A stretch of 39,670 bases of DNA, taken from NCBI GenBank assembly GCA_002869885.2, contig NEWR02000009.1:285005-324674 (forward strand), in the 5' to 3' direction. The stretch comes from Nitrospira sp. CG24C. Lineage in GTDB: Bacteria; Nitrospirota; Nitrospiria; Nitrospirales; Nitrospiraceae. Shown one piece after another: positions 12,998 to 39,670 of this stretch. Position 1 is the stretch's first letter. Every line of letters begins with the position of its first letter. The notes under the pieces were generated by a model that saw only the letters and a program-made list of their open reading frames with translations, was not told the origin of the DNA and ran no database searches. The translations under genes and the position numbers were made by a program.

Positions 12998-13075
12998 CTT
13001 CTACTGCGCGCATCGAACGAGCACCTTCCGAGCGTGCGCGTTCTGCGAGCAAGAAGGGCACCTGGCCACTCCCTC
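12998..13075 (+). repeat. structured dispersed repeat (TGCGCGC family), copy 1
   Basis: The core is TACTGCGCGCATCGAACGAG, then a hairpin: stem GAACGAGCAC (13015-13024) with GTGCGCGTTC (13034-13043), 9 of 10 paired, around a 9-base loop CTTCCGAGC. The right end is TGCGAGCAAGAAGGGCACC and then TGGCCACTCCCTC. Copy 2 has the same stem with a different 9-base loop. Confidence 0.85.
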
Positions 13076-13263
13076 TCTCACCCCCTTCGCATTCTGCAAG
13101 GATTTCCACACCATTCTTCCCATCCACTTCTGCAGTGAGGGAGGATCGGTTATCCATACGTGCGCGCCTCTTTCTCACCCGCCCACCCACTGGCACGCCG
13201 AGACGTGCCATTAGCCCAGGCGAGGGCCTTCTGGTTCCCCATTTGCTCTTTAGAGGGGTGGCC

Positions 13264-13345
13264 GAGGCTGCCCTTTACTGCGCGCATCGAACGAGCACAG
13301 TTTCACCGTGCGCGTTCTGCGAGCAAGAAGGGCACCTGGCTACCC
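13264..13345 (+). repeat. structured dispersed repeat (TGCGCGC family), copy 2
   Basis: Same organisation as copy 1. The left end is GAGGCTGCCCTTTACTGCGC. The stem 13289-13298 pairs with 13308-13317 and carries loop AGTTTCACC. The right end GAGCAAGAAGGGCACCTGGC stops just short of the reductase stop codon at 13347-13349. The stretch 13076-13263 between copies holds no supported gene. Confidence 0.85.
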
Positions 13346-13346
13346 C

Positions 13347-14933
13347 TCACCTCCTCATCCATGCGAACAACTTCATCAACCAATTCTTCGTCCGTGGCGT
13401 AAAATGTTCCTTGCGCCACAGGTTTACGACCTTCTTATTCACCTCGGCCTGCGTCGGATAGGGATGGATCGTCCCGGCAATCGTCTTCGCTCCGCCTCCG
13501 GCTTTCATCGCAACCGAAAACTCGCCGATCATCTCACCAGCATGGGCCGCCACGATCGTCGCGCCCAGGATCTTGTGCGTGCCCTTCTGAATGTGGACCC
13601 TCGCAAAGCCCTCATCTTCCCCGTCGAGAATCGCGCGATCGACTTCGTTAAGCTTGAAGGTGTAGGTCTCGACCTCGATTCCCTTCTCCTTCGCATCTTT
13701 CTCATACAGCCCGACATGCGCCACTTCCGGCTCCGTAAAGGTGCACCAGGGCATAATCAAGGATTCAACGCTGGCATGACCGAAGCCGAAGGGATGTGGA
13801 AATAGAGCGTTCTGAATCACGATCTGCGCCATAGCATCGGCAGCATGGGTGAACTTGTAGCGCGAGCAGATATCGCCCGCCGCAAAGATCCTGGGGTTCG
13901 TCGTCTGCAGCCGCTCGTTCACCTTGATCCCGTTCTTGTCGTGCTCGATACCGACCGCTTCCAACCCGATGCCCTCAACATTCGGAGTGCGACCGACGCC
14001 GACAAGAATCTCGTCGACCGTCACATCATACTGCTGACCATGTGAATCAACGGTGAGCCGCTTGCCGGCCTCCGTCTTCTGTACCTTCAAATCCTTCCCA
14101 CAACAGAGCAGCTTCACTCCGTCGCGCAGCATCTGCTGTTCGACAATGTCCGCTGCGTCGCGGTCTTCCTTCGGCATGATGCCGTGAGTCGTTTCAATGA
14201 GATGGACCTGGCTCCCAAAGCGGGCAAACGACTGCGCCAACTCGCAACCGATGGGACCGGCGCCAATCACCCCGATGCGTGGCGGCAGTTCCGTCAGCGA
14301 AAACACCGTTTCATTGGTGAGATAGCCTGCCTCTTTCAATCCCGGTGTCGGAGGCACCGACGCCCTTGCTCCAGTGCAGACAGCCGCTTTCACGAAGGTG
14401 AGGGTCCGATTGCCGGACGTCCCTTCGACTTGAATTGTGTCGGCGCCGGTAAAGCGCCCGCTGCCGATGTAGACGTCCACGCCCAATTTCGTGTAGCGAT
14501 GAACCGAATCGTTCTGGCTAATCTGCGCCCGCAGTTTTCTCATACGCGCCATCACAGCGCTAACATCGTACTTTACCCCGGGAGGAATATGCAGACCGAA
14601 CTCCTCGGCATTCCGCAAATCGGCCCAGGCCCTTGCCGCGCGAATGAGGCTTTTCGAGGGTACACAACCGACATTCAAACAGTCGCCACCCATCAAATGT
14701 TTTTCGATCAAGGCCACTTTGGCCCCCAAGCTCGCAGCGATGACAGCCGTGATCAATCCCGCGGTCCCAGCCCCGATGACCACAATGTTGTAGCGGCCGG
14801 CCGGTTCAGGGTTGACCCAGTTCGCGGGATGCACGTTGCCGATAAGCGTGCGATTATGCTCGTCGTCAGGCAGCATGAGGCTCTCTTCATGCTGATTCAT
14901 CACAACGATCTTCTCTGTTGACTGCATGACCAT
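13347..14933 (-). CDS. mercuric reductase-like FAD-dependent disulfide oxidoreductase
   Basis: This flavoprotein of 528 residues belongs to the dihydrolipoamide dehydrogenase/mercuric reductase/glutathione reductase family. The FAD dinucleotide motif GAGTAG is at 54-59, the redox disulfide GGDCLNVGCVPSK has Cys 85 and 90, the NAD(P) motif GAGPIG lies near residue 225, and AAGDI closes the FAD site. The C-terminal dimer domain has HPYPTQAE, which carries the active-site His. No N-terminal HMA domain and no C-terminal CC pair are present, so true mercury reduction is doubtful despite the usual annotation. It follows the TVP38 gene by 50 bases, a pairing common in bacteria. Several Met codons near the start leave the N-terminus uncertain. 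Confidence 0.9.
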   Translation of the reverse strand: MVMQSTEKIVVMNQHEESLMLPDDEHNRTLIGNVHPANWVNPEPAGRYNIVVIGAGTAGLITAVIAASLGAKVALIEKHLMGGDCLNVGCVPSKSLIRAARAWADLRNAEEFGLHIPPGVKYDVSAVMARMRKLRAQISQNDSVHRYTKLGVDVYIGSGRFTGADTIQVEGTSGNRTLTFVKAAVCTGARASVPPTPGLKEAGYLTNETVFSLTELPPRIGVIGAGPIGCELAQSFARFGSQVHLIETTHGIMPKEDRDAADIVEQQMLRDGVKLLCCGKDLKVQKTEAGKRLTVDSHGQQYDVTVDEILVGVGRTPNVEGIGLEAVGIEHDKNGIKVNERLQTTNPRIFAAGDICSRYKFTHAADAMAQIVIQNALFPHPFGFGHASVESLIMPWCTFTEPEVAHVGLYEKDAKEKGIEVETYTFKLNEVDRAILDGEDEGFARVHIQKGTHKILGATIVAAHAGEMIGEFSVAMKAGGGAKTIAGTIHPYPTQAEVNKKVVNLWRKEHFTPRTKNWLMKLFAWMRR

Positions 14934-14983
14934 CGCGGCGCTCTCACTGTTCTCCTACGCCTCACGTTTCACCAGACTTACAG

Positions 14984-15721
14984 TCATGCCGGTCTCCCAG
15001 ACCACTTCTTATACAAGCTCGGCACAAGCGCCAAAAGCCCCAGCAAGACAAATGCTCCAATCACTCCTGGAGAAGCAATGTCTTTCAACGAATTGATCGT
15101 GCCGAGTTGCCTGCCCGCGTAAGCATAGACGAAGGAACCGGGAATAATCCCGATAGCCGTCGCGACGACATAGGCGCCGACATTCATGCGAGTCAAGCCG
15201 GACACCAGATTCACCACAAAGAATGGAAAGAGCGGAATCAGCCGGAGAGTCATGAGATAACTGAACGCATTTTTCTCAAAGCCCTGTTGAACCGGCCCCA
15301 GCCACTTCCCAAACTTCCGTTCCACCCAATCGCGCAACAGATAGCGGGAGGCAAGAAATGCAAGCGTCGCGCCTGTCGTCGCCCCCAGATTGACGAACAG
15401 CGTACCCCACACAAACCCAAAGAGGAATCCGCCTGCCAATGTCAGAATCACGGCGCCGGGAAGCGAGAGCCCCGTCACGGCTATATAGGCCAAGACGAAC
15501 AAGGCTGCGGCTGCGGCAGAATTGGTTTCAGTGAACGACAATAGATAATCGCGATTGTCCTTAAGCGCCTGCAAGGATAGGAACTGGCCCAGATCGAAGT
15601 AGAAAAATGCGGCCACCGCGATTCCGATCGCAAGGACCACGATGATCTTCCCGATACCCAGCCCACTCTTTGCTTCAAAAGATGACATGTCGTGTGTCAT
15701 GACGGTGTGTTCCCGTATCAT
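14984..15721 (-). CDS. TVP38/TMEM64 (DedA-like) membrane protein
   Basis: The start is ATG 15721, with AGGAG five bases upstream. The product has 245 residues. About five to six hydrophobic segments are visible: a first span near 35-55; the re-entrant and core part with GAVILTLAGGFLFGFVWGTL; and RLIPLFPFFVVNLVSGLTRM, which carries the family's R-x-x-P-x-x-P/F motif, followed by GIIPGSFVYAYAGRQLG. Family members are inner-membrane proteins related to VTT-domain lipid scramblases. It is probably co-transcribed with the downstream flavin reductase. A fragment of a TGAAACG-type repeat lies in the gap between the two genes (about 14955-14975). Confidence 0.9.
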   Translation of the reverse strand: MIREHTVMTHDMSSFEAKSGLGIGKIIVVLAIGIAVAAFFYFDLGQFLSLQALKDNRDYLLSFTETNSAAAAALFVLAYIAVTGLSLPGAVILTLAGGFLFGFVWGTLFVNLGATTGATLAFLASRYLLRDWVERKFGKWLGPVQQGFEKNAFSYLMTLRLIPLFPFFVVNLVSGLTRMNVGAYVVATAIGIIPGSFVYAYAGRQLGTINSLKDIASPGVIGAFVLLGLLALVPSLYKKWSGRPA

Positions 15722-15903
15722 GGGGACTCCTTTTCCGGCTGTCAACGTGGGCAGCTGTTTCTCAGTCGCCCGAAACCCCATGGTCTTACAGCGACACTCC
15801 GGGAAACAGTGAAAGGTGAAACATATCCCGTCGGGGATGAGGAGCGTATGGCTGACGGGAGACAGAGATTGGATATGTAGAACCGGAGGTGGTGGGAGAG
15901 CGG

Positions 15904-16581
15904 CTATCGTGGCCGGCGATCGTAGAGGTCGCGATCCATATCGAGCCTGCCGAACACCCGTTCAACTGGGTCGATCGACCCGTCTTGGTTGCGGTCAAGC
16001 TCTTGGAAATGGTCGCGGGTCAATTCAGGATTGTGCGGGTCTGGAGTCCCTGCGCCGACGCGATGATTTCGGCGAGGATCGTAGCGTTGGGGGCTTTCCA
16101 ACATACCGTGGTACATGAGATCGATGCTCGGCGCCACGATAGCTTTTGGCATTTCCTTCTTATGAACTTTCATGCGTCGAGGGTTCTTCGACTTCGTTAG
16201 CGTAAAATCGGCCTGTACTGGCTTGGACTCAGCCGATGCAGGCTTAACCTGCTTTTCAATAACCTCCGGTGTACGTTCCCTGGCAACAGGCATGGGGCTC
16301 TTAGAGTTCGTGGGCTTGGCCGCAATCGCCGCTAGCTTCGTCTGCTTCTGACTAGCCTCTGGTTGGCGCTCAGCTTGAACGGCTATGGGGCTCTTCTTGG
16401 CACGTTGGATCGATGGGGTTTGCCCTTGCTCAGATGATTGCCTGATAGGCTTGGCTACGGCAACGGGAGCCGGCTCCGTTACTTTTTTTGTTGCTGCAAA
16501 CGTCTGCTCAACCGGAATCATGAGTACCGCCACGGAGCAGACTGCGCCGAGGACGATAAATTCTAAGGTGCTCCTACTCAT
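15904..16581 (-). CDS. secreted EF-hand protein
   Basis: This protein of 225 residues starts at ATG 16581 with GGGAGG close upstream. A signal peptide or membrane anchor (about 7-29, ending TFA/ATK) precedes a long disordered Lys/Pro/Ala/Gln-rich region with imperfect repeats (KSPIAVQAERQPE, KSPMPVARERTPE). The C-terminal 60 residues contain a canonical EF-hand loop, DRNQDGSIDPVE (about 196-207), after the helix DHFQEL. A partial second loop (DMDRDLYDRR) sits at the end. It is predicted to be periplasmic and calcium-binding. Partner unknown. Confidence 0.8.
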   Translation of the reverse strand: MSRSTLEFIVLGAVCSVAVLMIPVEQTFAATKKVTEPAPVAVAKPIRQSSEQGQTPSIQRAKKSPIAVQAERQPEASQKQTKLAAIAAKPTNSKSPMPVARERTPEVIEKQVKPASAESKPVQADFTLTKSKNPRRMKVHKKEMPKAIVAPSIDLMYHGMLESPQRYDPRRNHRVGAGTPDPHNPELTRDHFQELDRNQDGSIDPVERVFGRLDMDRDLYDRRPR

Positions 16582-16736
16582 ACCCCTCCCAATTTATGAA
16601 TCCCTGCAAGTGTAGCAGGTCGGACCAATCGCTAGGTTTTGTAATGAGTTAGGCGAAGTTGTTTATCTCGAATTCTGAGACCTCGTACTTGTAAGACAGG
16701 ACCTTCTTGCCCTACTCTGTACGGGGAGGCCAACCT

Positions 16737-17381
16737 ATGGATGAACCGAGCCGTTTGACCAAGACAAAAGAACAGTGGGCCAAGGCCCGGCGTGGCGGTG
16801 AAGAACGAGAAGTGTTTTACGAAGGAGATGCCCGCCTGCCACCGGGACAACATCTCGTCGAAACCTGGCCTGTGTTGGACCTGGGATTCAAGCCTGATGT
16901 TCCCTTGACCGAATGGAGCCTTGCCGTCAACGGGTTCGTGACCACTCCCGTCACCTGGACATGGGAGCAGTTCTTGGCACAGCCCCAGTTCAACAACGTT
17001 TCAGACTTCCACTGCGTCACGAGCTGGAGCCGGTTCGATAACGAGTGGGAAGGGGTCAGTTTCAAACACATTCTGTCCCTGGTGAAGCCGCTGTCCTTAG
17101 CAAAGTTCGTCCTATTCAAATCGTTCGACGACTACACCACTAACTTGCCGCTTGAAGCCTGCGACGATCAGGATGTGCTGCTGACGTACAAATGGAACGG
17201 CAAACCCCTCACGAAGGAACACGGAGGCCCGGTTCGCGTGATTGTCCCGAAGCGTTATGCCTGGAAAGGCGCGAAGTGGGTGAAGGAGATCACTTTTTCG
17301 GATAAGGATGAAAAGGGATTCTGGGAAGTGCGTGGCTACTCGAACAGCGCCTTTCCTTGGGAGAACGATCGGTACGGATGA
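16737..17381 (+). CDS. sulfite oxidase-like molybdopterin oxidoreductase
   Basis: ATG 16737 is chosen because GGGAGG lies seven bases upstream; the frame opens earlier at 16707. The product has 214 residues and one oxidoreductase molybdopterin-binding domain. Signature parts are LTEWSLAVNGFVTTPVTWTW, DFHCVTSWSRFDNEWEGV (the Cys is the expected molybdenum ligand), FDDYTTNLPLEACDDQDVLL, and GGPVRVIVPKRYAWKGAKWV. It lacks both a Tat signal and the dimerisation domain of true sulfite oxidase. It is therefore a short YedY/sulfite-oxidase-like cytosolic type with unknown substrate. Confidence 0.92.
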   Translation: MDEPSRLTKTKEQWAKARRGGEEREVFYEGDARLPPGQHLVETWPVLDLGFKPDVPLTEWSLAVNGFVTTPVTWTWEQFLAQPQFNNVSDFHCVTSWSRFDNEWEGVSFKHILSLVKPLSLAKFVLFKSFDDYTTNLPLEACDDQDVLLTYKWNGKPLTKEHGGPVRVIVPKRYAWKGAKWVKEITFSDKDEKGFWEVRGYSNSAFPWENDRYG

Positions 17382-17390
17382 GCCCGTCTA

Positions 17391-17530
17391 GCAAGATGCT
17401 GAAAAATCCCGCCAGCCTAAGAAGACCGTTGTTTGGTTTTTCTGGTCTGTTTGCTTTTTTGGCAGAACGAGACTCATCAGATGAACCAAATTAACCAGAT
17501 AAACAAAACAAACCAGTTTGAGCATCCTGC
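17391..17530. repeat. composite repeat: GGATGCT-type ends around a T/G-to-A/C hairpin (copy C)
   Basis: The left end GCAAGATGCTGAAA (17391-17404) and right end TTTGAGCATCCTGC (17517-17530) are inverted repeats matching at 12 of 14 bases. They resemble the ends of the elements at 32999 and 38152. Inside is a T/G-to-A/C hairpin: GTTTGGTTTTTCTGGTCTG (17430-17448) and ATTAACCAGATAAACAAAAC (17490-17509). It lies between two genes in the same direction. Confidence 0.75.
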
Positions 17531-17585
17531 GTGGTGTTCTCCCGTTACTCCAAACGTGTAGGTCAGTGAAGTTCTGGTCTTTCCA

Positions 17586-18692
17586 ATGCACGATATCTCC
17601 AACACCATATGCAAGGTGGAATTCTGGCCCGTTGATATTCCTATTACAGACCCCTTTGTCGTCGCCACCGGCGCACGAACAATAGCAGAGAATGTTTTCC
17701 TGCGCGTTACCCTGTCGAACGGCTCACAAGGATATGGTGAAGCAGCCCCGTTTCCGGAAATCGGAGGAGAAACTCGCGAGAGTTGCCTTCGAGCACTCCA
17801 CCAGATCGGTAAGATAGTTCTTGGTCGCTCTGCCGCAAGCCATAAAGAAGTTGGGCGCTTGTTATCCGAAGAGGCCCTCACTTATCCAGCGGCACGGTGT
17901 GGACTCGAAACCGCCATCATCGATGCCTATTGCCACATGGCAAATATCCCGATGTGGCAACTGTGGGGTGGCGCAGATGTGCGAGCGCGGGAGACGGACA
18001 TCACGATTCCCATCACCGATCTCGACAAAACCGTTGCCCTGGCGCGCGGATGGTATGTGCGGGGATTTCGCCTCTTCAAAATGAAGGTCGGCAAAGATGT
18101 GGAGAGCGACATTCGACGTCTAGAAGCCGTGCATTGCGCACTCCCGGGCATCTCGTTCATCGGCGACGGTAATCAGGGATTCTCGCGCCAGGACTGTCTG
18201 ACGTTTGCACAGGGGGTGAAGAGATTTGGCGGGACGATGGTGCTGCTCGAACAGCCGGTAGTACGGGACGATCTCGACAGCATGGCAGCGATTCGTCGAG
18301 AGACGGGCATTCCCGTTGCGGCGGATGAATCGGTCCGCTCACTCGCAGATTCGCGAGAGGTCGCCGCCCGAGGTGCGGCTGACTACATTAACATCAAGAT
18401 CATGAAGACCGGCGTCGCTGAAGCAATTGAGATCGCATCCTTCACTAAAGCCTCCGGCCTCAAGTTGATGATCGGCGGGATGCTCGAAACACGTATCGCA
18501 ATGGGCTGCTCTTTCAGCCTGGTCCTGGGACTCGGTGGCTTCGACGTGCTGGACCTCGACACTCCGCTCTTGCTGACCGGCGATCCTGTTACTGGCGGAT
18601 ACAGTTACGAAAGCTCACACCTGCAACCCTGGTCAGAATCAGGTCTCGATATGACAGCAGCGCCTTCTCCGAACGTCACCACTATCGAGTGA
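17586..18692 (+). CDS. dipeptide epimerase (enolase superfamily)
   Basis: This protein of 368 residues belongs to the muconate-lactonizing/L-Ala-D/L-Glu epimerase group. The N-terminal capping domain contains TDPFVVATGARTIAENVFLR and GYGEAAPFPEIGGET. The barrel carries the KxK base motif (K165, K167), the metal ligands D194 (GDGNQG), E222 (LEQP) and D247 (ADES), and the second catalytic K271 (NIKIMK). The DLD at 323-325 is the feature that marks dipeptide epimerases, binding the substrate amino group. The expected role is recycling of murein peptides or epimerising another dipeptide. The ribosome site is weak. The gene is convergent with the DUF3565 gene. Confidence 0.92.
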   Translation: MHDISNTICKVEFWPVDIPITDPFVVATGARTIAENVFLRVTLSNGSQGYGEAAPFPEIGGETRESCLRALHQIGKIVLGRSAASHKEVGRLLSEEALTYPAARCGLETAIIDAYCHMANIPMWQLWGGADVRARETDITIPITDLDKTVALARGWYVRGFRLFKMKVGKDVESDIRRLEAVHCALPGISFIGDGNQGFSRQDCLTFAQGVKRFGGTMVLLEQPVVRDDLDSMAAIRRETGIPVAADESVRSLADSREVAARGAADYINIKIMKTGVAEAIEIASFTKASGLKLMIGGMLETRIAMGCSFSLVLGLGGFDVLDLDTPLLLTGDPVTGGYSYESSHLQPWSESGLDMTAAPSPNVTTIE

Positions 18693-18735
18693 AGCAGGCT
18701 GAGGTCGTGGTCAAGGCTGAGCAAAGACCTGAACC

Positions 18736-18945
18736 TTAACTTTTCAGAGTACTGCCGCTCGCTTCATCACACTTCTTACAATTCAAGCTTTCTCCAAGAT
18801 GCTGGCCACGGCCTTCCTCAGTCAAGACCCAGGGGCGATTCGTCATCGGCGGTTGATGACGCACATGCTGGCCATGGCCACATTGTAAATCAGCCACCCA
18901 ATCGCCAAATTCATCTAGATGATAACCAACAATGGGTTGCTGCAT
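18736..18945 (-). CDS. DUF3565 domain protein
   Basis: This small protein of 69 residues matches the DUF3565 pattern across its length: GYHLDEFGDWVADLQCGHGQ, then HVRHQPPMTNRPWVLTEEGR, then LNCKKC near the end. The conserved Cys/His set (C22, H24, H27, H30, C56, C59) suggests metal binding. The function of the family is unknown. It is transcribed divergently from the GAF/HD-GYP gene. Confidence 0.88.
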   Translation of the reverse strand: MQQPIVGYHLDEFGDWVADLQCGHGQHVRHQPPMTNRPWVLTEEGRGQHLGESLNCKKCDEASGSTLKS

Positions 18946-22929: not shown

Positions 22930-24087
22930 CTATCTGAGAAGTCCGTAGCCGTTCCCGTTCCCCGGTCCCCCTCCATTCCCGTTGCCAACTCCATCGGACG
23001 CACCGGTAAAGACGGCAGGAGGAGTAACGACTACATTGGCATTACTCAGACCGAACGCATGGCCCTGTCCATTTCCTCCGTTGAGACCATAGGCATTCCC
23101 GTTCCCACTTCCACTCCGGTTGTCGCCTCCTTGCCCTTTGCCTTCACTTGTGACGGAGGCATGGCCGTTTAGGTTCCCGGACGAACCTCCACTCCTGCTA
23201 TCGGACAGACCGGTCAGAGTCGCAAGGGCCTTCGCCAGATGAACATCATGATGCATGGCCTCCGCCGCTTGCATCGGCGATTCCTTGGGACGAGCTTCGC
23301 GCATCATAGTGTCCTCCACGGCTTGGATCGCACGCGCCAATCCTTTATTCGATGAAACCTCATGCAGCGAAGCGACCTGTGAGCCCCCCTTCTTCTCACC
23401 ATGGCGATCGACCAGGGTGGCTCCGTTGTCTTGTCTCTTCGTCACTTGCGCCTGTTCGGACTGAGCAGTATTGGCAAGCCCGAGTCCATGCACAGCCGGC
23501 AACGACGGCGCCATTCCACGCTCGGCCAGGGAAAACTGCCCCGGATCGACAGCCACCGTCACTCCGCCTGAAGTAAAGTCCACCCGCCCTGATTCGCCCA
23601 CATTGATGATCCCTGACTGCCCGTTTTCATGCCAGACCGTGAAATAGGTCCCGCGCGCAGCTGCCACAGCAGACGGAGTGTGGACCTCAAACCGCGATCC
23701 GTTCGATTTAAACACTTTGCTCACCAGAGCCCGCACTTGGCCCTGCATCACCTTCACGACAGATCGACGAAGTTTGGCGTCCGGATCGTAAATATATTCA
23801 GTGATCTCGACCCGGCTGTTCTCCCCTACAGTCAAGACGCTGTCATCCTGGAAGAAGGCCTTTGTCCGAGACTCTTTCTCAGTCTGAATGACATCCTTGA
23901 AGAGCACCTCGTCATGCAACTTAACCGGCAGCACACGCGCCTCACCCGGATGGGTCACCGTGACCTTTCCCATCACGGCGGTGTAGACACCGACTCCGCC
24001 GGAGCCGGCATTCTCAGCCGACGCAAGAGCAGGGCTCAGCAACAGGGTCACTGCGATCAAGCCTTTTGTGAATCGTAGGGTACTCAT
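22930..24087 (-). CDS. FecR-domain secreted protein
   Basis: This protein of 385 residues starts at ATG 24087 with GGAG six bases upstream. The signal peptide (1-24, ending ASA/ENA) precedes a FecR domain (about 33-180): VYTAVMGKVTVTHPGEAR, VLFKDVIQTEKESRTKAFFQ, DDSVLTVGENSRVEITEY, FEVHTPSAVAAARGTYFTVW. The remainder is disordered, ending in an Asn/Gly-rich tail (NGNGGGPGNGNGYGLLR). It lacks the N-terminal membrane anchor of sigma regulators, so it belongs to the stand-alone FecR proteins found with CHASE2 sensors. Such proteins are thought to act in the periplasm, but the role is not established. Confidence 0.92.
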   Translation of the reverse strand: MSTLRFTKGLIAVTLLLSPALASAENAGSGGVGVYTAVMGKVTVTHPGEARVLPVKLHDEVLFKDVIQTEKESRTKAFFQDDSVLTVGENSRVEITEYIYDPDAKLRRSVVKVMQGQVRALVSKVFKSNGSRFEVHTPSAVAAARGTYFTVWHENGQSGIINVGESGRVDFTSGGVTVAVDPGQFSLAERGMAPSLPAVHGLGLANTAQSEQAQVTKRQDNGATLVDRHGEKKGGSQVASLHEVSSNKGLARAIQAVEDTMMREARPKESPMQAAEAMHHDVHLAKALATLTGLSDSRSGGSSGNLNGHASVTSEGKGQGGDNRSGSGNGNAYGLNGGNGQGHAFGLSNANVVVTPPAVFTGASDGVGNGNGGGPGNGNGYGLLR

Positions 24088-27321: not shown

Positions 27322-28221
27322 ATGGGACAGTCTGATTCGAGGATCGGTTTCGTGGGAGTCGGACGGATGGGGGCCAACATGGCCCGACGCTTGAATGATC
27401 GAGGGGAAACGATTGTCGCCGTCTACGATCTAGGTCTCGCCACGGCCACCGATCTTGCATCAGAACTCGGCTGTGAAGCAGCTGCATCCCCTGCCCGTGT
27501 GGCAGAACTCGCCAACATCGTTTTCACTGTCGTGACCGATGACGCGGCGATGCGCGAAATCTTTTCCACGACCAGCACAGAGAGTCTGCTCCGCCACGCC
27601 AAGAACCGGCTCTTTGTGAACTGCGCTACCCTCTCGCCGGCTGTGCACGTCGATGTCGAAACGTTGGTGACGCAATATGGAGGCCGAAGCCTCGAAGCCT
27701 GTATGGCCAGCAGCATCACACAGGCGCGCCAAGGCACGCTCTACCTCATCTGCGGTGGGCGTCAGGATGTATTCGAATCGGCGAAACCACTTTCAGAAAA
27801 ACTGAGCGCGCATCTCCGCTATGTCGGATCGGCAGGAGAGGCTGCGAAGGTCAAAGCCCTCGTCAACATGGTGATGAATTGCAATACGGCAGCACTGGCA
27901 GAAGGACTGGGGCTTGGAGCGGCGCTCGACCTCGATCTGACGATGTTGCGGGAAGTCTTTGCCCAAACAGGAGCCGCATCGCGCGTGTTGGAGACGGACG
28001 GCGAGGATATGCAGAACCGCGCCCATGACTGCTACTTCTCGGCTGCCCATGCAGCCAAAGACTCAGGCATCGCCCTCGCGTTAGCGAACACCGCCGGACT
28101 CGCTGTGCCTCTAGCTCAAGCGACCTACGAGCAATACCAGCGGCTGGTTGCGCTCGGCAAAGGCGAGTTGGACAAATCTGCCGTCTCTGAACTCACCTTC
28201 AAAGACCGAAGCCCTCACTAG
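27322..28221 (+). CDS. beta-hydroxyacid dehydrogenase family protein (3-hydroxyisobutyrate dehydrogenase/GLYR1-like)
   Basis: The start is ATG 27322, with GGAGG seven bases upstream. The 299-residue product has an N-terminal Rossmann domain GFVGVGRMGANMARRL (from residue 9) and the C-terminal all-alpha domain. The catalytic Lys region is GEAAKVKALVNMVMNCNTAA. The substrate loop, usually D-x-P-V-S-G-G, here reads CMASSITQARQGTLYLICGG, so substrate identity is unclear; it probably reduces a semialdehyde or short hydroxyacid with NAD(P)H. The last base of the TAG stop is the first base of a MITE-like element, so its original C-terminus may have been altered. Confidence 0.9.
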   Translation: MGQSDSRIGFVGVGRMGANMARRLNDRGETIVAVYDLGLATATDLASELGCEAAASPARVAELANIVFTVVTDDAAMREIFSTTSTESLLRHAKNRLFVNCATLSPAVHVDVETLVTQYGGRSLEACMASSITQARQGTLYLICGGRQDVFESAKPLSEKLSAHLRYVGSAGEAAKVKALVNMVMNCNTAALAEGLGLGAALDLDLTMLREVFAQTGAASRVLETDGEDMQNRAHDCYFSAAHAAKDSGIALALANTAGLAVPLAQATYEQYQRLVALGKGELDKSAVSELTFKDRSPH

Positions 28222-28431
28222 CCCGCATTATTCATGACGGTTCGTGGCGAAATCGCGCAGTCGCCATGCGAGCCAGGCGCGCGGAGCCGTGAGGGAAGGA
28301 GGCATACTTGAAACAGTATGTTGACCGACCGAATGGCGAGCCCGCCTGCCTGGACGCCGGGCTACCGCGTCCAGGCTTGTCGCAGCGGCGAATCCTCGAT
28401 TGCAGCAGAAGCGCTCATGAATAATGCGGGC
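28221..28431. mobile_element. MITE-like element with 17-bp perfect terminal inverted repeats
   Basis: GCCCGCATTATTCATGA (28221-28237) and its exact reverse complement (28415-28431) bound a 211-bp stretch without a credible gene. The interior is GC-rich with its own hairpins, e.g. GGACGCCGGGCTACCGCGTCC (28353-28373, a GGACGC/GCGTCC pair). No clear target-site duplication is seen. It looks like a non-autonomous derivative of an insertion sequence whose transposase is elsewhere. Confidence 0.8.
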
Positions 28432-28456
28432 TCGGCCGCGCGAGGTAAGCGGAGCG

Positions 28457-28541: not shown

Positions 28542-28997
28542 TCACCGTTTCTCGAAGGGGAGTTCGGCCCGTTGATTGGCGGGAAAGTAGGCCCAGACCT
28601 TCTGCTCATTCTCGTCGAAACTGCCGAGAAAGGTCACGAAGCGATCGAGGGCACGAAACTCGGCCAGTGTGACCGTACAGTGCGGCACGTCGATAACGCG
28701 GGCATCGAACTGGCCCACCACATAGAGCACGCCAGCCCCAGCTTGATAAAGATTCCGCCGGCTCGCATATCCCGTATTGGGGAATAGATCGACATTGAGG
28801 GAACAGCCTCCAGGCCCTGCCATCGTGAGCAGAAGATCGTGCCGCGAGAGGAAGGGACTGGTCGCGGTTCGGGTAATTGTTAGACGCACCTGATCAGCCG
28901 AGAACTCGACAGAAGCCGGCACCGGCCCTTCGTTGTTACAGGCAACCAGAAACAGAAATAGGCCGGCTAAGCATCTTGCCTGATATGTCCCAATCAC
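28542..28997 (-). CDS. hypothetical lipoprotein
   Basis: This protein of 151 residues uses a GTG start at 28997. That GTG overlaps the TGA stop of the preceding gene by four bases (GTGA), implying translational coupling. The N-terminus ends in a lipobox FLVAC (Cys at about 20), predicting lipid anchoring. The mature part is beta-rich with two further Cys (GGCSLN, PHCTV) and no recognised family. It is co-transcribed with a secreted DUF336 protein, suggesting an envelope pair. Confidence 0.82.
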   Translation of the reverse strand: MIGTYQARCLAGLFLFLVACNNEGPVPASVEFSADQVRLTITRTATSPFLSRHDLLLTMAGPGGCSLNVDLFPNTGYASRRNLYQAGAGVLYVVGQFDARVIDVPHCTVTLAEFRALDRFVTFLGSFDENEQKVWAYFPANQRAELPFEKR

Positions 28998-29545
28998 TTG
29001 GTTGCTGGAACTTTCGGCGCAGCGCCAATCGCAGCCAACCCTGCTTGAGCACAGGCATCGTCGAGGTGTGTACCTGGTGCACCACTCACACCGATCCCTC
29101 CAACGATCTCACCGCCGATCTCGATCGGGAGTCCACCCCCCAACATCAGAATTTGATCGTTCATATCGCGAAGCGCTTGCAAAGTCGGCATCTTGTTGAT
29201 CAACTCAGCCAGCTCGGTCGTTGTACGGCGCAGACTTGCCGCAGTATAGGCCTTCTTCCTGCTGCTATCGACCGTATGGGATCCAGCCCCATCGGCTCGA
29301 ACCATGGCGCGAAGTACGCCGGCTCGATCCACGATCGACACGCTCACCCGATAACCATCCTTGTTACAGGCATCCAATGATGCTTGGGTCGCCTTACCGG
29401 CCAGCGAGAGCGGCAACACCGACTCTTTCGGCAGATCGTCAGAAGCTAGAACTGGGTAAGACATTAGCATCACAAACGTCGATGCGATCATGAACCGATA
29501 CGCCATACGCACAAAACGCCTACGATGCAGGTCAAAGCGTGCCAT
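28994..29545 (-). CDS. secreted DUF336 / HbpS-GlcG-like (heme-binding type) protein
   Basis: This protein of 183 residues starts at ATG 29545 with AGGAG eight bases upstream. A signal sequence (about 13-34, ending VLA/SDD) precedes one DUF336 domain: ACNKDGYRVSVSIVDRAGVL, then MVRADGAGSHTVDSSRKKAY, MNDQILMLGGGLPIEIGGEI, VGGIGVSGAPGTHLDDACAQ. The family includes HbpS, which binds heme, and GlcG. The export signal fits an HbpS-like periplasmic role, but heme binding cannot be shown from sequence. It is coupled to the lipoprotein gene by a 4-base overlap. Confidence 0.92.
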   Translation of the reverse strand: MARFDLHRRRFVRMAYRFMIASTFVMLMSYPVLASDDLPKESVLPLSLAGKATQASLDACNKDGYRVSVSIVDRAGVLRAMVRADGAGSHTVDSSRKKAYTAASLRRTTTELAELINKMPTLQALRDMNDQILMLGGGLPIEIGGEIVGGIGVSGAPGTHLDDACAQAGLAAIGAAPKVPATK

Positions 29546-29626: not shown

Positions 29627-29838
29627 GAGGGAGTGGCCAGGTGCCCTTCTTGCTCGCAGAACAGAGGAGGGGATGGAGCCCCTGATGATCTATCTGTGCT
29701 CGCGCAACGCGCGGCCTCAGAAGGCCCTCGTTGGACGCGCGCAGTGGAAGATCCATCAGCCCCCATCCCTAAGGAGAGAACAAGCAAGCTTGGAGGGAAC
29801 ATGTATATCGTTCGATGCGCGCAGTAAAGGGCAGCCTC
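29627..29838 (-). repeat. structured dispersed repeat (TGCGCGC family), copy 3, nested
   Basis: On the minus strand the left end (29838-29810) is identical to that of copy 2 (GAGGCTGCCCTTTACTGCGC and onward). The right end (29662-29627) is identical to that of copy 1 (TGCGAGCAAGAAGGGCACC and onward). Between them sits a second, complete core of another subtype (29770-29701) with GACTGCGC-like CCACTGCGCGCGTCCAACGA and a hairpin. So one copy appears to be split by another. The flanks 29546-29626 and 29839-29955 contain no supported gene. Confidence 0.82.
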
Positions 29839-29955
29839 AGCCGCTCCCCTACCGAGAGGTGGAGAGAATTGGAAGGGCTTGTTTAGGAACTGCAGCCTAC
29901 GGGAGAGGATGGTGCGAATGGATACGGAGGGATGACAATGAATGGGAGTACTGGC

Positions 29956-33209: not shown

Positions 33210-33218
33210 GACTAAACC

Positions 33219-34397: not shown

Positions 34398-34404
34398 CAG
34401 GGTA

Positions 34405-34435
34405 ATGAACAAGACCGCCAGCCGGTCTTGTTCAT
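34405..34435. terminator. terminator hairpin after thiI
   Basis: A perfect 13-bp stem ATGAACAAGACCG (34405-34417) with 34423-34435 has loop CCAGC and begins eight bases after the thiI stop. It is followed by TTGGTCTGTTC, the start of hairpin repeat copy F. The stem sequence ATGAACAAGA equals the usual right end of that repeat family. Confidence 0.8.
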
Positions 34436-34555
34436 TTGGTCTGTTCGGTCTATCTGGTCTGTCTCGTTTAATTGGTTTGTTTGGTTTGTCTTGTTTTTTA
34501 GTTGTATCAGACAGACCGGATAGACCAGATGAACCAGACAGACCAGATCACCAGC
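34436..34555. repeat. T/G-to-A/C hairpin repeat, copy F
   Basis: The left arm (34436-34500) carries GGTCTGTTCGGTCTATCTGG and then TTGGTTTGTTTGGTTTG units. The right arm (34508-34555) carries AGACAGACCGGATAGACCAG and continues ATGAACCAGACAGACCAG. GGTCTATCTGGTCTG-like words on the left have exact complements on the right. It ends two bases before the stop of the convergent SRPBCC gene. Confidence 0.85.
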
Positions 34556-34557
34556 CC

Positions 34558-35130
34558 TCACTGTGATCGCCCTGACTGCAGCTCCTGCTGTATTTGCAGC
34601 GCTTTTTCTCTTACGATTCGAAAATGCATTTCCATATCTCGCCGCATCGCTACGGCGACAATCCAATCCGGCACCATCATGTCGATCTCGACGAGCAGTT
34701 CAAACTCAGCCTTGGTATGAGCCCCCCCATCGACTGGGTTAAGCTTCCAGAACCGGCGGTACTGTTTGAAGTCGCCCCCCTTCAATTCCGTCAGCAACTC
34801 TCCAGTCGGTAATGTCCTCGTCTCACTCAGAAGGCGGCGCTCTCCTGGAAGCAAAGCATGGTCGATCCGAATATCCGTGAACACCTTGCCGTCTTGGTCC
34901 CGTATCTCCGCCATCCGCATCCGTACGTCGAAGAGATCAGGCCAATGGGCATAGTCGGTCAATATTCCCTGGATGATCGCCGGCTCCACCGGAAAGAGAA
35001 TTGTGGCTGTCGCCTTCACACCGCCAGTGGGTTCCGTACGAACATCCAGTACGACAGGCTCGGCCGCACGGCTCCACCCGGACCATCCGAGTACGAGATA
35101 GACCATGACAATCATCACACGCCACAACAT
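34558..35130 (-). CDS. secreted SRPBCC (START-like) domain protein
   Basis: This protein of 190 residues has a signal peptide (about 1-22, ending SRA/AEP). The domain then follows the polyketide-cyclase/START pattern: ILFPVEPAIIQGILTDYAHW, PDLFDVRMRMAEI, a strand pair around RRLLSETRTLPTGELLTELK, FWKLNPVDGGAHTKAEFELL, and a long C-terminal helix VPDWIVAVAMRRDMEMHFRI. Such domains bind hydrophobic ligands. The N-terminal Met is uncertain, as several occur within 10 residues and no ribosome site is clear. It is convergent with thiI. Confidence 0.85.
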   Translation of the reverse strand: MLWRVMIVMVYLVLGWSGWSRAAEPVVLDVRTEPTGGVKATATILFPVEPAIIQGILTDYAHWPDLFDVRMRMAEIRDQDGKVFTDIRIDHALLPGERRLLSETRTLPTGELLTELKGGDFKQYRRFWKLNPVDGGAHTKAEFELLVEIDMMVPDWIVAVAMRRDMEMHFRIVREKALQIQQELQSGRSQ

Positions 35131-35179
35131 GCCGCAAGTATATAGACCCGTTGAGAGTCACGCGAGGACAAACAGCCAC

Positions 35180-35274
35180 CCGTGAGACGTGAAACGTCAA
35201 AGGTAAAACGTTTCGGAGGAAATGCACTCGGCAGCCCACGTTTCACCGTTCACGTCTTACTTTTCACGGTTTTC
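35180..35274. repeat. CGTGAAACG-type hairpin repeat
   Basis: The left arm CGTGAGACGTGAAACGTCAA (35181-35200) continues AGGTAAAACGTTTC. The right arm CACGTTTCACCGTTCACGTC (35238-35257) continues TTACTTTTCACGG. The arms are built of short TGAAACG/TGAGACG units that can pair in several registers. Single-arm fragments of the same type are at about 14955-14970 and 15808-15821. Confidence 0.7.
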
Positions 35275-35344
35275 GAGAGCATCCTGCTAATGCGTCGGAC
35301 CCTGATTGACGCCTACAAACATCGCTGTGCTAGGATGCTGCGTG

Positions 35345-35710
35345 ATGAAACGCTGGCCCTTCCTGTTATTGATACTCATCGGCCTGTGGAGCCTTTCAGC
35401 CGCTGCTCACGCGCAGCCCATGGACGACTCACATGCCACGACAGAACAGTCTTGTAGTTTCGGCATGGCGAAGGGAGAGGCCTCGCAGAGCTGTCACGTT
35501 CCCTTCCCCTCAGGCTGCCTCGTGGCCAATGTCCCAGGAACCGATAAACCCTGGTCGACCTTCTCCAAGGGTGGAAACACATCCTGCCGATTCGACGAGA
35601 AAGGGACGGACTGGAAAACTAAAATCACCGGTTCCTGCACCCGCTGCAAATCCGACCATTGTTCGGCCCAGTTCAGTGTCCGCTTTGACTGCTCCCAGCA
35701 ATCGCACTAG
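35345..35710 (+). CDS. small secreted Cys-rich protein
   Basis: ATG 35345 starts a clear signal peptide (MKRWPFLLLILIGLWSLSAA, cleavage near AHA/QPM), so it is preferred to the in-frame ATG at 35306. The product has 121 residues. The mature chain has eight Cys (QSCSF, SCHV, GCLV, SCRF, SCTRCKSDHC, DCSQQ), an even number that fits four disulfides in a compact periplasmic fold. No family recognised. It ends two bases before queG, so the two may be co-transcribed, although they share no obvious function. Confidence 0.8.
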   Translation: MKRWPFLLLILIGLWSLSAAAHAQPMDDSHATTEQSCSFGMAKGEASQSCHVPFPSGCLVANVPGTDKPWSTFSKGGNTSCRFDEKGTDWKTKITGSCTRCKSDHCSAQFSVRFDCSQQSH

Positions 35711-35712
35711 CT

Positions 35713-36720
35713 ATGTCTCTCGCTGAGGCGATTAAAAGCGAAGCCAAAGCCCTAGGGTTCGACGCCGTCGGCATCAGCCGAATCCCCACTAGCAGTCAGC
35801 CTGACTCTTCTCTACCCCCTTACCCCACTACCCCCTTACCTCGTCTCTTATTCAGCCGTCTCACGGAATGGCTCCAGCGCGGCTACCACGGCGCGATGGC
35901 CTGGATGACTCGTGACCCAGCTCGCCGAAGCGATCCGCAACAGGTATTGCCAGGCTGCCGATCGATGATCTCGGTCGGGATGAACTACTACACGGACAAT
36001 CGTGCGAACGAGCAGCCTGGAATGGGACGCATTGCTCGTTACGCCTGGGGCAAGGATTACCACATGGTCATAAGCCAGCGACTCGCGCAACTCGAAGCGA
36101 AGATCGCAGCCTTGGCGCCGGGCGTCACCACCAAGACCTATACCGATACAGGCCCGATCATGGAAAAGGCCTGGGCTCAGCAGGCCGGCCTTGGCTGGAT
36201 CGGGAAACATTCCAATCTCGTCTCAGCCGAATCTGGTTCTTGGCTCCTGCTCGGGGAGATTCTGACGACCCTTGATCTGACAGAGGATGACCCGGGCACA
36301 GATCTGTGCGGAAGCTGCACCCTCTGTATCCAGGCTTGTCCGACCGGCGCTATCGTCGAACCCTATGTCGTCGATGCCCGGCTCTGTATCTCGTACTTGA
36401 CCATCGAACTTCGCGGGGGCCGAGAGGTCATCTCCGACGAACTCGCTTCTCAGATGGGCAATCGTATTTTCGGCTGTGACGATTGCCTGGACGTCTGTCC
36501 CTTTAACTTACGAGCAGATGCAACGACCGAACCAGCCTTCACCCCCACCCCCTTGACCCTCGCTCCCAATCTCCAGGCCCTGGCTCAGATCAGCGAAGAG
36601 AGTTTTACAACCACGTTCAAGGAGAGCCCCCTCAAGCGTGCCAAACAGACTGGCCTCCTTCGCAACGTCGGGATTGCACAGGAAAACCACAGACGACAGA
36701 TAGGAGGCCGGACTTCTTAG
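35713..36720 (+). CDS. queG: epoxyqueuosine reductase
   Basis: This enzyme of 335 residues makes queuosine in tRNA from epoxyqueuosine using cobalamin and two 4Fe-4S clusters. YTDTGPIMEKAWAQQAGLGW (143-162) is the cobalamin/active-site segment, with D145 the expected proton donor. The cluster Cys are C199, C202, C205, C209 (CGSCTLCIQACP) and C255, C258, C262 (CDDCLDVCP), with C225 nearby. It is at the short end of the family range and lacks the HEAT-like C-terminal domain of longer forms. Residues 27-45 (SSQPDSSLPPYPTTPLPRL) are a Pro/Ser-rich insertion encoded by a TACCCCC pyrimidine tract. Confidence 0.95.
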   Translation: MSLAEAIKSEAKALGFDAVGISRIPTSSQPDSSLPPYPTTPLPRLLFSRLTEWLQRGYHGAMAWMTRDPARRSDPQQVLPGCRSMISVGMNYYTDNRANEQPGMGRIARYAWGKDYHMVISQRLAQLEAKIAALAPGVTTKTYTDTGPIMEKAWAQQAGLGWIGKHSNLVSAESGSWLLLGEILTTLDLTEDDPGTDLCGSCTLCIQACPTGAIVEPYVVDARLCISYLTIELRGGREVISDELASQMGNRIFGCDDCLDVCPFNLRADATTEPAFTPTPLTLAPNLQALAQISEESFTTTFKESPLKRAKQTGLLRNVGIAQENHRRQIGGRTS

Positions 36721-36789
36721 CCACCCCTTTTTTCTTGGCCGGAAGAGGAGTAGGCTATTTCCAGTACTTAGCAGAGAGGCCTGAACACT

Positions 36790-38151
36790 ATGCATCCTCC
36801 GGTCCTGCTGCTCATCTCGACCGATCCCCAGACCAAGCCGGTGCTTGAACAAGCCCTCGCCGATCGACAGGCCACCATCCTTGCTGCTGCAACAACCGAC
36901 GAGGGTCTGCGCATTCTAAAAGACCAAACGGACATTGCACTCGTCCTCTGTGACGAGAGCCAGGGGCGGATTGCAAGCCAGGTGATCTTGGCTCAGGCTA
37001 GACGCATCGCTCAGAACCTCCCCGTGATCATTCTCGGGACAGACGGATCGGCCAAAGCCGCGGTCGAGGCATTGCACCGTGGCGCCACAGACTATCTCGC
37101 TCAACCGGTCACGACGAAAGATCTCCAGGCCGCCATCGACAAAACCCGAATCTTCGAAGCGCCAGAGCCCCAAGCGCGCGAAGAGCGCCTCTCAGCCTTC
37201 GATCAGATCGTCAGCCGATCGCCTCAGATGAAACTGCTGAAACATCTGGCAGCCGAAGTCGCTCAAACCGACGCAACAACTGTCCTCATCACCGGCGAAA
37301 GTGGCACCGGTAAAGAACTCTTCGCCCAGGGGATCCATGCAGCCGGTCCCAGATCCAAAGGCCCCTTCGTGGCACTCAACTGTGCCGGTATCCCCGAGCA
37401 CCTTCTCGAATCCGAATTGTTCGGCTATCAGCGCGGCGCTTTTACCGATGCGAAGCAGACCAAACCGGGGCGGTTCCAGCTCGCGAATGGTGGCACGCTC
37501 TTCCTCGACGAAATCGGTGAGATGAGTTCGTCAGCCCAGGCGAAACTCCTACGAGTTCTGGAGAATCATCAGGTCGATCCGCTGGGCGACACACACAGCA
37601 TCCACGTCGACATCCGCGTGATCGCGGCCACGAACGAAGATTTGCCGGCGCAGATCAAAACAGGGCGATTCCGCCTGGACCTCTACTATCGACTGAACGT
37701 CTACCAACTGCGTATCCCGCCGCTCCGCGAGCGACCAGAAGATATCGAACCGATTCTGACATCCTTCCTGGAAACCGCCAGGCGAGATCATGGCTGCCGC
37801 ATCAAGGGCATCACCCCTGCTGCGCTGGCCATCTTGCAAGGCCACGACTGGCCCGGCAACGTACGAGAACTGCACAACGTGCTCGAAGGGCTCACCATTA
37901 CATGCAAGGACGAGATGATCCAGCCGGACCACCTCCCCGCCTCTCTGCGAGACGCCAAATTAGCTGGATCGAACGGAGAAACCGGAAAGACCTCGCTCCT
38001 GGCCTACGGTCTCTCAGTTGACGAAATGGAAAAGAAGATGCTGCAGGAAGCGCTACAGCGCACAGGCGGCAACATTTCCGAAGCCAGTCGGCTCCTCAAG
38101 ATCACTCGGAATACGCTCCGGTATCGCATGGCAAAATACCACCTCCCGTGA
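36790..38151 (+). CDS. sigma-54-dependent response regulator (NtrC family)
   Basis: This protein of 453 residues has a receiver-like domain (1-120), an AAA+ domain (about 140-370) and a Fis-type helix-turn-helix (about 415-453, GGNISEASRLLKITRNTLRY). The AAA+ Walker A GESGTGKE is at 169-176 and Walker B GTLFLDE at 235-241. The sigma-54 contact loop reads GAFTDA at 216-221 rather than GAFTGA. In the receiver, D55 is in the phosphoacceptor position, but the Lys of the usual K-P pair is Gln (Q105-P106) and the N-terminal acidic pair is reduced to one Asp (D12). Control by phosphorylation is thus uncertain. No sensor kinase gene is adjacent. Confidence 0.93.
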   Translation: MHPPVLLLISTDPQTKPVLEQALADRQATILAAATTDEGLRILKDQTDIALVLCDESQGRIASQVILAQARRIAQNLPVIILGTDGSAKAAVEALHRGATDYLAQPVTTKDLQAAIDKTRIFEAPEPQAREERLSAFDQIVSRSPQMKLLKHLAAEVAQTDATTVLITGESGTGKELFAQGIHAAGPRSKGPFVALNCAGIPEHLLESELFGYQRGAFTDAKQTKPGRFQLANGGTLFLDEIGEMSSSAQAKLLRVLENHQVDPLGDTHSIHVDIRVIAATNEDLPAQIKTGRFRLDLYYRLNVYQLRIPPLRERPEDIEPILTSFLETARRDHGCRIKGITPAALAILQGHDWPGNVRELHNVLEGLTITCKDEMIQPDHLPASLRDAKLAGSNGETGKTSLLAYGLSVDEMEKKMLQEALQRTGGNISEASRLLKITRNTLRYRMAKYHLP

Positions 38152-38272
38152 GAATGCTGAAACAGACCCCCAACTTTGTTCTCGGCTCGACCGAATCCTC
38201 AACGTAGCCATGAGGCTACGCCTCCGGTTCTGTCTCCCCTGCGGCCTCGTTGGATGGCCTGTTTGAGCATCC
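38152..38272. repeat. dispersed element with GGATGCT-type ends, short copy
   Basis: GAATGCTGAAACAG (38152-38165) pairs with CTGTTTGAGCATCC (38259-38272), 12 of 14. In reverse orientation the interior shares CCAACGAGGCCGCAG, ACCGGAGGCG, TACGTTGAGGAT and TCGAGCCGAGAAC with the element at 32999-33209. It contains a small hairpin GTAGCCATGAGGCTAC (38205-38220). It begins directly at the NtrC-gene stop codon (TGA 38149-38151). Confidence 0.85.
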
Positions 38273-38543
38273 TCACCTGAACCCCCTACAGTCATAGTAA
38301 TAGAGCGAAGGCAGCAGCCTTGTAGATCACCATTACCAAGAAGATGTGAACCGGGATATACGGTGGGATGATAACTGGATAGATCCCAGGATTTGCGGTC
38401 TATCCCGGCAGGTGGTACTAAACGGTGTGATGGATATGCGTACAACGTTGCAGTAGGCTTGTTCACAACTGATTGCTGAGTCTGCATTGCTATGCTGCAC
38501 AGGCAGTCTGTAGCAGACCTAAATATTAAGGCCCACGACATAG
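38273..38543. other. gene-free region before the SIR2-like gene
   Basis: No credible gene is seen. G+C is lower than in the housekeeping genes upstream. A GGTCTATCC/GGATAGATC inverted pair lies around 38374-38406. This region should hold the promoter for the SIR2-like gene; no box is clear enough to name. Confidence 0.45.
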
Positions 38544-39476
38544 ATGCGTGTACTAGTGATCGGAGCCGGAACAAGTATTGAAGAGGCAAAGAGAGCTAAT
38601 GTATCAGAAGAGTTCTGGCCGCCCACCATGGCGAACTTCGCGAAGAAGATGTGGGATGGTCCGATCTTCCAGTTCTCCAACTACTGGTTGTCCGACTACC
38701 TAACAGAGCAAGGAATTGATCCAGGGAACGATCCAATCTCTGTATTCACTACGTTGGCAAAAGAGCCGGAAAGCGTGATGAACCTTGAACGGCTATTTGA
38801 GTACTGCTGGGTGAACAGGGGAAAAAAGTTCGAAGGCGACTGGGAAAACTTGATCCACCACGGAATACTCAACCCGCTTTCATTCCTACTTAACAAGGCC
38901 TTCTATGAGAATGGAGTGGGAGTTAAGCAACTGGAGGTTGGAAAACTGGTTTCGGGCAGACTCAAGGATGGAGACTTAGCACTGAATCTCAATTATGACC
39001 CTATGTTCGAAATAGCGGCCATACAACAAGGGCATCAGCTTACGTATGTGCCTCATCTGGTTAGTCGAAAAAGCATACTGGTTGCCAAGCCACACGGATC
39101 ATTTAATCTACTGGCTGACGAGAAGTTTTTCCGGTTCGCCCACCCAGACTGCATAGGCGCCGTTCCGTCGAGCGCTGATAATTTCCGTAACCACCGGGCA
39201 ATTGTGCCGCCCCGATTTAATAAAAGATATGCGCAGCATCCTATAGCGAGAATAATTATTGACGGTATCGTGAGCTTCCGTCCAGACATAGTGACGTTTT
39301 GGGGAGTCAGCCTCACTGATAGTGACGCAGATTTGCTCGACGTATACAGGAAGTGGATCGCTTCAACATCGGTCATTGAAGTAATCAATCCAGACGCTGC
39401 CGTGACTGAAAGAGCCATGGGAATGTTCAAGAGAGACGTACGACATTACTCAACACTAGAAGAGTGGTTGGGCTAG
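38544..39476 (+). CDS. SIR2-like domain protein (possible NADase)
   Basis: This protein of 310 residues has no signal or membrane span. It shows the ordered motifs of SIR2-like Rossmann proteins: GAGTS at 7-11, NLNYDP at 148-153 (the catalytic Asn type), KPHGS at 182-186 (the catalytic His type), and FWGVSLTDSDADLL at 252-265 (the G-x-S-x-x-D motif), then INPD at 281-284. Stand-alone SIR2-like proteins of this kind occur in anti-phage systems such as Thoeris ThsA and DSR, where they destroy NAD. No partner gene is in the window. Codon use and G+C look more AT-rich than the neighbours, and repeats flank it on both sides, which suggests acquisition. Confidence 0.75.
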   Translation: MRVLVIGAGTSIEEAKRANVSEEFWPPTMANFAKKMWDGPIFQFSNYWLSDYLTEQGIDPGNDPISVFTTLAKEPESVMNLERLFEYCWVNRGKKFEGDWENLIHHGILNPLSFLLNKAFYENGVGVKQLEVGKLVSGRLKDGDLALNLNYDPMFEIAAIQQGHQLTYVPHLVSRKSILVAKPHGSFNLLADEKFFRFAHPDCIGAVPSSADNFRNHRAIVPPRFNKRYAQHPIARIIIDGIVSFRPDIVTFWGVSLTDSDADLLDVYRKWIASTSVIEVINPDAAVTERAMGMFKRDVRHYSTLEEWLG

Positions 39477-39600
39477 ACCTAACTTTAACTCGATCAGAGG
39501 GTATGAAATCGTGCGTCGCCATTGGACATGTCAAATGGTGTCAGTCATCACTTTTCTAGACCCACCTAACAGTCTTGCCAAGCTCGCTCGTTGTTTCTTC

Positions 39601-39670
39601 AGGGATGGGGGCTGATTGATCTTCCACTGCGCGCGTCCAACGAGGGCTTTCTTAAGCCGCGCGTTGCGCG
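39601..39670 (+). repeat. structured dispersed repeat (TGCGCGC family), copy 4, cut by window end
   Basis: AGGGATGGGGGCTGAT (39601-39616) and the following core match the reverse complement of 29701-29770 at 66 of 70 bases. Two of the four differences form a compensatory pair within the hairpin GGCTTTCTTAAGCC (GGCCTTCTGAGGCC in the other copy). The element continues past the window. The stretch 39477-39600 before it has no supported gene. Confidence 0.85.

Follow-up and report, generated by a model that had tools for sequence, protein, structure and literature searches.

The window analysed here is 39,670 nt of Nitrospira sp. CG24C, on contig C22 of a 3.0-Mb draft genome. It carries copies of a dispersed repeat, an imperfect hairpin of about 100 nt in which a conserved 47-nt core lies between arms of about 22 bp (Table 1). 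The core reads TGCGCGC R TC S AACGAG, 14 nt, GCGCGTT S Y GCGAGCA, and the 14 nt form its apex. An earlier note on this sequence had described four copies. These are present, but the left core halves number five, the copy at 29627-29838 is an element within an element, and the fourth copy leaves the window. The 8-mer CTGCGCGC starts at 13004, 13278 and 39627 on the plus strand and lies at 29737-29744 and 29817-29824 on the minus strand. It also matches the minus strand at 23653, a position absent from all later match lists. As the note had stated, no protein gene is attached to the repeat in the window.

Table 1. Hairpin elements and the adjoining gene in the window
Feature	Position	Strand	Evidence
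Copy 1, hybrid element; 47-nt core 13005-13051	12977..13079	+	R1 match, 76.0 bits
Remnant of a third element: left arm and first core bases (GGTTATCCATACGTGCGCGC)	13136..13167	+	Sequence compared with L207 and L221
Copy 2, intact subfamily (a) element; core 13279-13325	13250..13353	+	R1 match, 89.4 bits; sequence; open reading frame list
Neighbouring gene, FAD-containing oxidoreductase, outside the element	13347..14933	-	NF004991, 779 bits (cut-off 620)
Nested pair, outer subfamily (a) element: right core half and right arm	29627..29662	-	
Nested pair, inner subfamily (b) element, intact; core 29697-29743	29666..29771	-	R1 match, 78.5 bits
Nested pair, outer subfamily (a) element: left arm and left core half	29808..29856	-	
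Copy 4, subfamily (b), runs off the window end; core from 39628	39600..39670	+	R1 match, 59.8 bits, 3' cut

Comparison of arms at orthologous sites assigns the left arm of copy 1 to an older element of the same intergenic site and its right arm to subfamily (a); the two pair poorly. The remnant that follows was shortened by a younger insertion, and intact relatives of it are found in genomes G013 and G009. The right arm of copy 2 abuts the stop codon of the antisense gene (13347-13349). In the nested pair, the leader of the inner element (CCTCCAAGCTTGCTTGTT) lies between 29772 and 29807. The stretch 39601-39670 and the minus strand of 29701-29770 agree at 66 of 70 bases; of the four differences, two amount to a single C-G to T-A pair change in the apical stem, both as previously reported. 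A shared leader, TCCNTCCAAGCTYGCTCGTT, also precedes the left arm by 35-45 nt in elements whose arms differ, among them subfamilies (b), (c) and others (window 29772-29807 is an example).

The repeat is real and exceeds chance. Its left half, CTGCGCGCRTCSAACGAG, was found 131 times in the genome at up to two mismatches (80 forward, 51 reverse), and the backwards-read control pattern once. Longer matches number 44 at E<=0.001. When loci found by the two-half pattern were left aside, 85 unique left halves remained; the right half follows at exactly 14 nt in 64, lies at another distance within 60 nt in 5 and is missing in 16. Over all loci, the spacing is 14 nt in 213 of 284. The core stem contains two near-fixed mismatches: of the 205 copies, 203 have the G-A and all have the A-G. 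A TC bulge is present in 201. The A-G mismatch falls in the 10-bp stem GAACGAGCAC/GTGCGCGTTC, which the first two copies share as the note had reported, though not as an unbroken helix. Their nine-base loops differ at six of nine positions rather than completely. Core pairs change together across the 205 copies (G-C 131/A-T 65; G-C 111/C-G 91; A-T 193/G-C 9/C-G 2). A view of the core as a direct repeat, two TGCGCG..CGAGCA hairpins in tandem, was dropped; subfamily (b) loses the tandem and retains the long hairpin.

The arms of the 205 copies fall into 84 sequence clusters and stay complementary, with a median score of 31 within a copy versus 15 for arms swapped between copies. Of 67 well-paired arms, 36 carry a net additional base on the left, mostly 9-15 nt from the core; 22 have none and 9 show the reverse. 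The covariation score is 0.383, compared with 0.178 for shuffled and 0.131-0.229 for slid partners. In alignment A1, 80.9% of cells pair versus 38-53% with partners slid, percentages that lean because A1 consists of 70 of the 84 cluster representatives chosen for well-paired arms. Both sides change in 24 of its 32 pairs. Checked for variation without compensation, the stems proved compensated.

Wobble pairs differ between the strands. With one copy per cluster and a scoring that treats G-T and A-C alike, the 84 representatives contain 109 G-T and 27 A-C pairs; 4000 swapped pairs gave 1982 and 1492. The well-paired subset contains 92 and 19. By RNA folding energy, 63 of 84 copies are more stable on the element strand and 19 on its complement. 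The excess of G-T over A-C means that the fold of one strand seems to be selected. Structure is thus what is conserved: the suggestion of the earlier note is borne out by arm complementarity, core covariation and strand-asymmetric wobble. Any of the identities that it offered, a miniature inverted-repeat transposable element (MITE), a retroelement-derived repeat or a small-RNA family, may still apply.

Relatives were represented by one genome per species, many of them fragmented, and orthologous copies of related species were each counted, so locus counts are not independent. At up to one mismatch in 17 bases, the left half occurs in 32 of 32 genomes of the same genus (3 to 153 per genome) and in 5 of 5 genomes from other genera of Nitrospiraceae (1 to 19 each). 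Genomes from other families of the order gave one match each in 2 of 24, the control level. A covariance model detected the repeat in 31 of 148 genomes of the phylum, all of them among the 32 Nitrospiraceae. It matched none of the 116 genomes outside that family, nor the family member G193. Strict filters were applied and 27 candidates were scored per genome, so these counts are lower bounds. Complete single-contig genomes gave 7, 19, 25 and 45 covariance-model matches.

Sites with and without the element were compared in 19 relatives' loci. At 29627-29955, the nested pair is present in this genome and in G017; the relatives have a 30-50-bp spacer in 14 loci and a different repeat in 2, and 2 are not judgeable. 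Beside the stop codon of the gene at 13347-14933, an element is present in 14 loci and absent from 4, and 1 is not comparable. Younger elements lie inside the loop of an older left half in L209, L210, L214 and L216, and the fetched loci contain 15 broken-open elements whose two arms still match. Left-half remnants number 72; an intact core follows within 170 nt on the 3' side in 39 and in none of the other 33. All 39 remnants have the orientation of the intact core (39 same, 0 opposite). Where two intact cores are neighbours at under 400 nt, they share an orientation in 37 cases and differ in 1. The elements are near-palindromic, so instability of inverted copies would poorly explain the uniform direction of nesting. 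The repeat has several traits of a MITE: it is short, occurs in many intergenic copies, has no coding capacity and occupies sites that are empty in relatives. Empty sites and nested insertions make a mobile element more likely than a stationary family of RNA genes.

Copies show a preference for gene 3' ends, in antisense orientation. Genes were called with a purpose-written codon-score script, which missed at least one gene (28994-29545). By these calls, 211 of 213 copies lie outside genes. Where genes were called to the left and right of a copy, the one on its 3' side runs antisense to it in 131 of 160 cases. In a set of 160 copies whose 3' gene is antisense, 66 have its stop codon 10-35 nt past the core, within the right arm or at its end. 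Separately, L096, L018, L144 and L177 contain runs of similar genes of about 440 nt, each ending at a repeat copy, as if gene and repeat had been duplicated together.

We hold with moderate confidence that the repeat is a non-autonomous family of mobile hairpins whose folded single strand is recognised by some protein. The form acted on would be one single strand folded on itself. The protein may read the core through the two G-A mismatches and the TC bulge, and the arms would need only to form a helix. New copies do insert at fresh sites and into the cores of older copies, with the direction fixed when nested. Propagation may be mainly for the element's own sake, and the antisense copies just past stop codons would be those that the host tolerates. 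As part of this explanation, the family is probably ancient in Nitrospiraceae.

Several observations weigh against the mobile-hairpin explanation. The protein partner was not found among the candidates searched, which were the REP-associated tyrosine transposase (RAYT; REP, repetitive extragenic palindrome), integron integrase and reverse transcriptase. The element strand is mostly opposite the G-rich (leading) strand (28 versus 10 in G191 and 18 versus 1 in G165, with 13 set aside); it is therefore not on the lagging-strand template, the usual site of single-strand transposons. Where the downstream gene is in sense, 18 of 26 copies still face negative skew, as do 16 of 28 between convergent genes, and replication and transcription are not separable as the cause of orientation. 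In a fixed ungapped register, the wobble asymmetry is only 106:80 (swapped pairs 10396:9127), which is attributed to register slips diluting it. Among the three intact or near-intact window copies that were folded, the element strand is clearly favoured in one only; another is even, and hybrid copy 1 favours the complement. Most of the analysed copies were also retrieved through near-consensus cores, with 146 of 205 from loci found by the two-half pattern.

Some copy-rich genomes lack RAYT, some integron integrase and some reverse transcriptase, so all three are excluded as a permanent partner. A partner that is gained and lost over time may exist. Rfam gave no matches in the window; its best match for one copy had an E value of 0.34, far below the gathering score. 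One 47-nt core, searched at E 1e-5, had no counterpart in plasmid and phage records; the threshold is strict for a query of that length. In the fetched loci, 18 pairs of core halves with matching arms were inspected for mobile genes between the halves; with one exception, L324, they enclose nested repeats or repeated units. In L324 (G191, minus strand, about 1256-2476), a two-gene HigB/HigA-like toxin-antitoxin pair, named by eye, lies between the halves of a broken element. The repeat did not prove to be the end of a known insertion sequence, as far as RAYT linkage, plasmid and phage records and the genes between core halves can tell.

An orphan system that targets its own kind is an unlikely variant. 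Here an enzyme that recognises nothing but the mismatched core would insert a folded element strand, either RNA or single-stranded DNA, in a fixed direction into the apex of an older copy or just beyond a stop codon. Such a system would lie outside the REP, integron, IS200/IS605 and group II intron systems.

Equally doubtful is a DNA MITE mobilised in trans by a DDE transposase, with the arms kept complementary by template switching during replication and not by structural selection. Inspection by eye shows CCTTC at either end of the subfamily (a) insertions of L052 and L125 and close variants of it in L059 and L080. Template switching is able to create and repair hairpin stems (PMC8794818), and many small bacterial repeats are MITEs of this sort (PMC2229807). 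Target duplication is absent from L117 and from the nested pair in the window, which also lacks part of the host loop. Template switching should erase the core mismatches and the left-arm bulge, and both mismatches are kept almost without exception. At the 13347-14933 site, an old element has compensatory arm changes between species (L211, L212) and retains the bulge while adjacent pairs change together. Random DNA insertion would not predict one orientation in 39 of 39 nested cases, and it is the centre of the repeat that is conserved, not its ends.

Rather unlikely is an RNA-templated route, the most daring of the specific mechanisms considered. A putative RNA of the element strand would be copied after a nick in the gene-sense strand just past the stop codon, which primes reverse transcription from the RNA 3' end in the right arm; the 5' end would join variably, often onto an older core. 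For five of seven subfamilies, the similarity between copies breaks off close to the right arm, at medians of 20-28 nt past the core; on the left it extends further and varies more in most. This limit, the strand of the wobble excess and the position of the right arm at stop codons would fit 3'-primed reverse transcription. The antisense orientation and the strict direction of nesting would fit too, as would the older left halves that persist while right halves are replaced (L209, L214, L216, L210). In subfamilies 2 and 5, by contrast, the right medians are 44 and 54.5 nt because another repeat adjoins. The possible 5-bp duplications point to staggered DNA cuts. The reverse transcriptase domain RVT_1 was not found in this genome and is present in 5 of the 25 same-genus genomes searched.

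An element at gene 3' ends, acting in RNA or DNA, that the host maintains for its function (as a processing signal, an antisense RNA or a terminator) after an early spread, appears less plausible still. Its presence in all but one of the family members sampled, its retention at the 13347-14933 site in most relatives and its consistent position after stop codons agree with such a role. The same site is without an element in 4 of the 19 loci, however, and holds different elements in others. The insertion at 29627 is lineage-specific, and counts within the genus range from 3 to 153 per genome. The gene's own transcript would, moreover, contain the less favoured complement.

It is very improbable that the repeat is a REP element mobilised by a RAYT (Y1_Tnp) transposase. 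REPs and their REPtrons share with the repeat an intergenic hairpin, conserved mismatches and a bulge, and recognition of one strand; binding of the folded single strand by TnpA_REP requires conserved mismatches and bulges (PMC8266576), which those found here resemble. The unit is about three times the length of a REP (about 100 nt versus 20-40), and no GTAG tag was identified in it. One Y1_Tnp gene is present in this genome. None was matched in G001, G009 and G018 (99% complete; 73, 107 and 93 pattern matches) or in several other copy-rich genomes. No core half was found in the fetched flanks of 26 of 30 Y1_Tnp loci; the other four had single or partial matches, and none was framed by copies. 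RAYT/REP membership was rejected on this absence and lack of linkage. The single Y1_Tnp-like gene of this genome (L031, G000:C20:7882-8205) adjoins an Rhs-like repeat reading frame, with no hairpin copy in the fetched flanks.

An attC-like recombination site of an integron system can be set aside as the least credible reading: the one-strand fold, the variable palindromic arms, the position after stop codons antisense to the gene and the toxin-antitoxin-like pair in L324 recall attC, whose single active strand is recognised by structure and not sequence (PMC2727003), but the copies are dispersed and form no array. A fixed inside and variable outside is the reverse of the attC layout. Integron integrase exceeded the TIGR02249 cut-off in just 3 of 41 genomes, including 2 from the genus, and integron membership was rejected on that ground; other tyrosine recombinases, below the cut-off, occur in 41 of 41.

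Elements of the ERIC/IRU type are also known with internal insertions. Like the Nitrospira repeat, they are intergenic imperfect palindromes of about 100 nt, in many copies and with an orientation that is relevant in operons (PMC2229807). They differ in sequence and hosts; the Nitrospira repeat has 84 arm clusters around one fixed core, nests strictly in the same direction and has near-invariant paired G-A mismatches. The BOX, RUP and SPRITE repeats of pneumococcus are likewise small folded repeats that cluster and insert into each other (PMC3049150). Terminal inverted repeats define them, whereas a conserved centre and drifting arms characterise the Nitrospira repeat. A 2025 RepRanger survey predicted 3,788 palindromes in Nitrospira moscoviensis (PMC12306157). 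This was a permissive count of 5-32 nt palindromes, and the portion of that survey available describes no such Nitrospira family. Literature searches, which reached their sources in part, returned no description of one either. In kind, this is a dispersed palindromic repeat of the ERIC, REP or BOX type. What sets it apart is that its mismatched centre is fixed and its arms are free, that its fold is strand-specific and that its nesting keeps a strict orientation.

Major nitrite oxidisers and comammox bacteria belong to Nitrospira, and the repeats matter for reading gene ends in the genus and for strain typing. If the mobile-hairpin explanation is true, this is a mobile repeat that inherits only its fold and leaves arm sequence free. 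With tens to more than 100 copies in most of the genus genomes searched, it would then offer a natural experiment on stem compensation and a means of telling selection from template-switch repair. The 47-nt core would provide a route to its binding protein.

Other repeats were noticed. A dispersed repeat of about 215 bp with imperfect inverted ends (AGCCCGCATTATTCATGA .. TCATGAATAATGCGGGCT) lies at window 28218-28432 and occurs in many Nitrospira genomes at 88-95% identity. Intergenic palindromes that repeat every nine bases (TTTGGTCTG-like) lie at window 842, 6787, 17430, 27137, 28457 and 34433, and one such stretch lies inside a hairpin core in L266. L199, L203 and the flanks of arm cluster 2 copies contain another repeat, with ends GCAGGATGCTCAAAA / TTTTTCAGCATCCTGCTA, that embeds one hairpin subfamily. 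In G014 and G031 it is found at the same place between genes, and the stop codon of an adjacent gene often lies within it.

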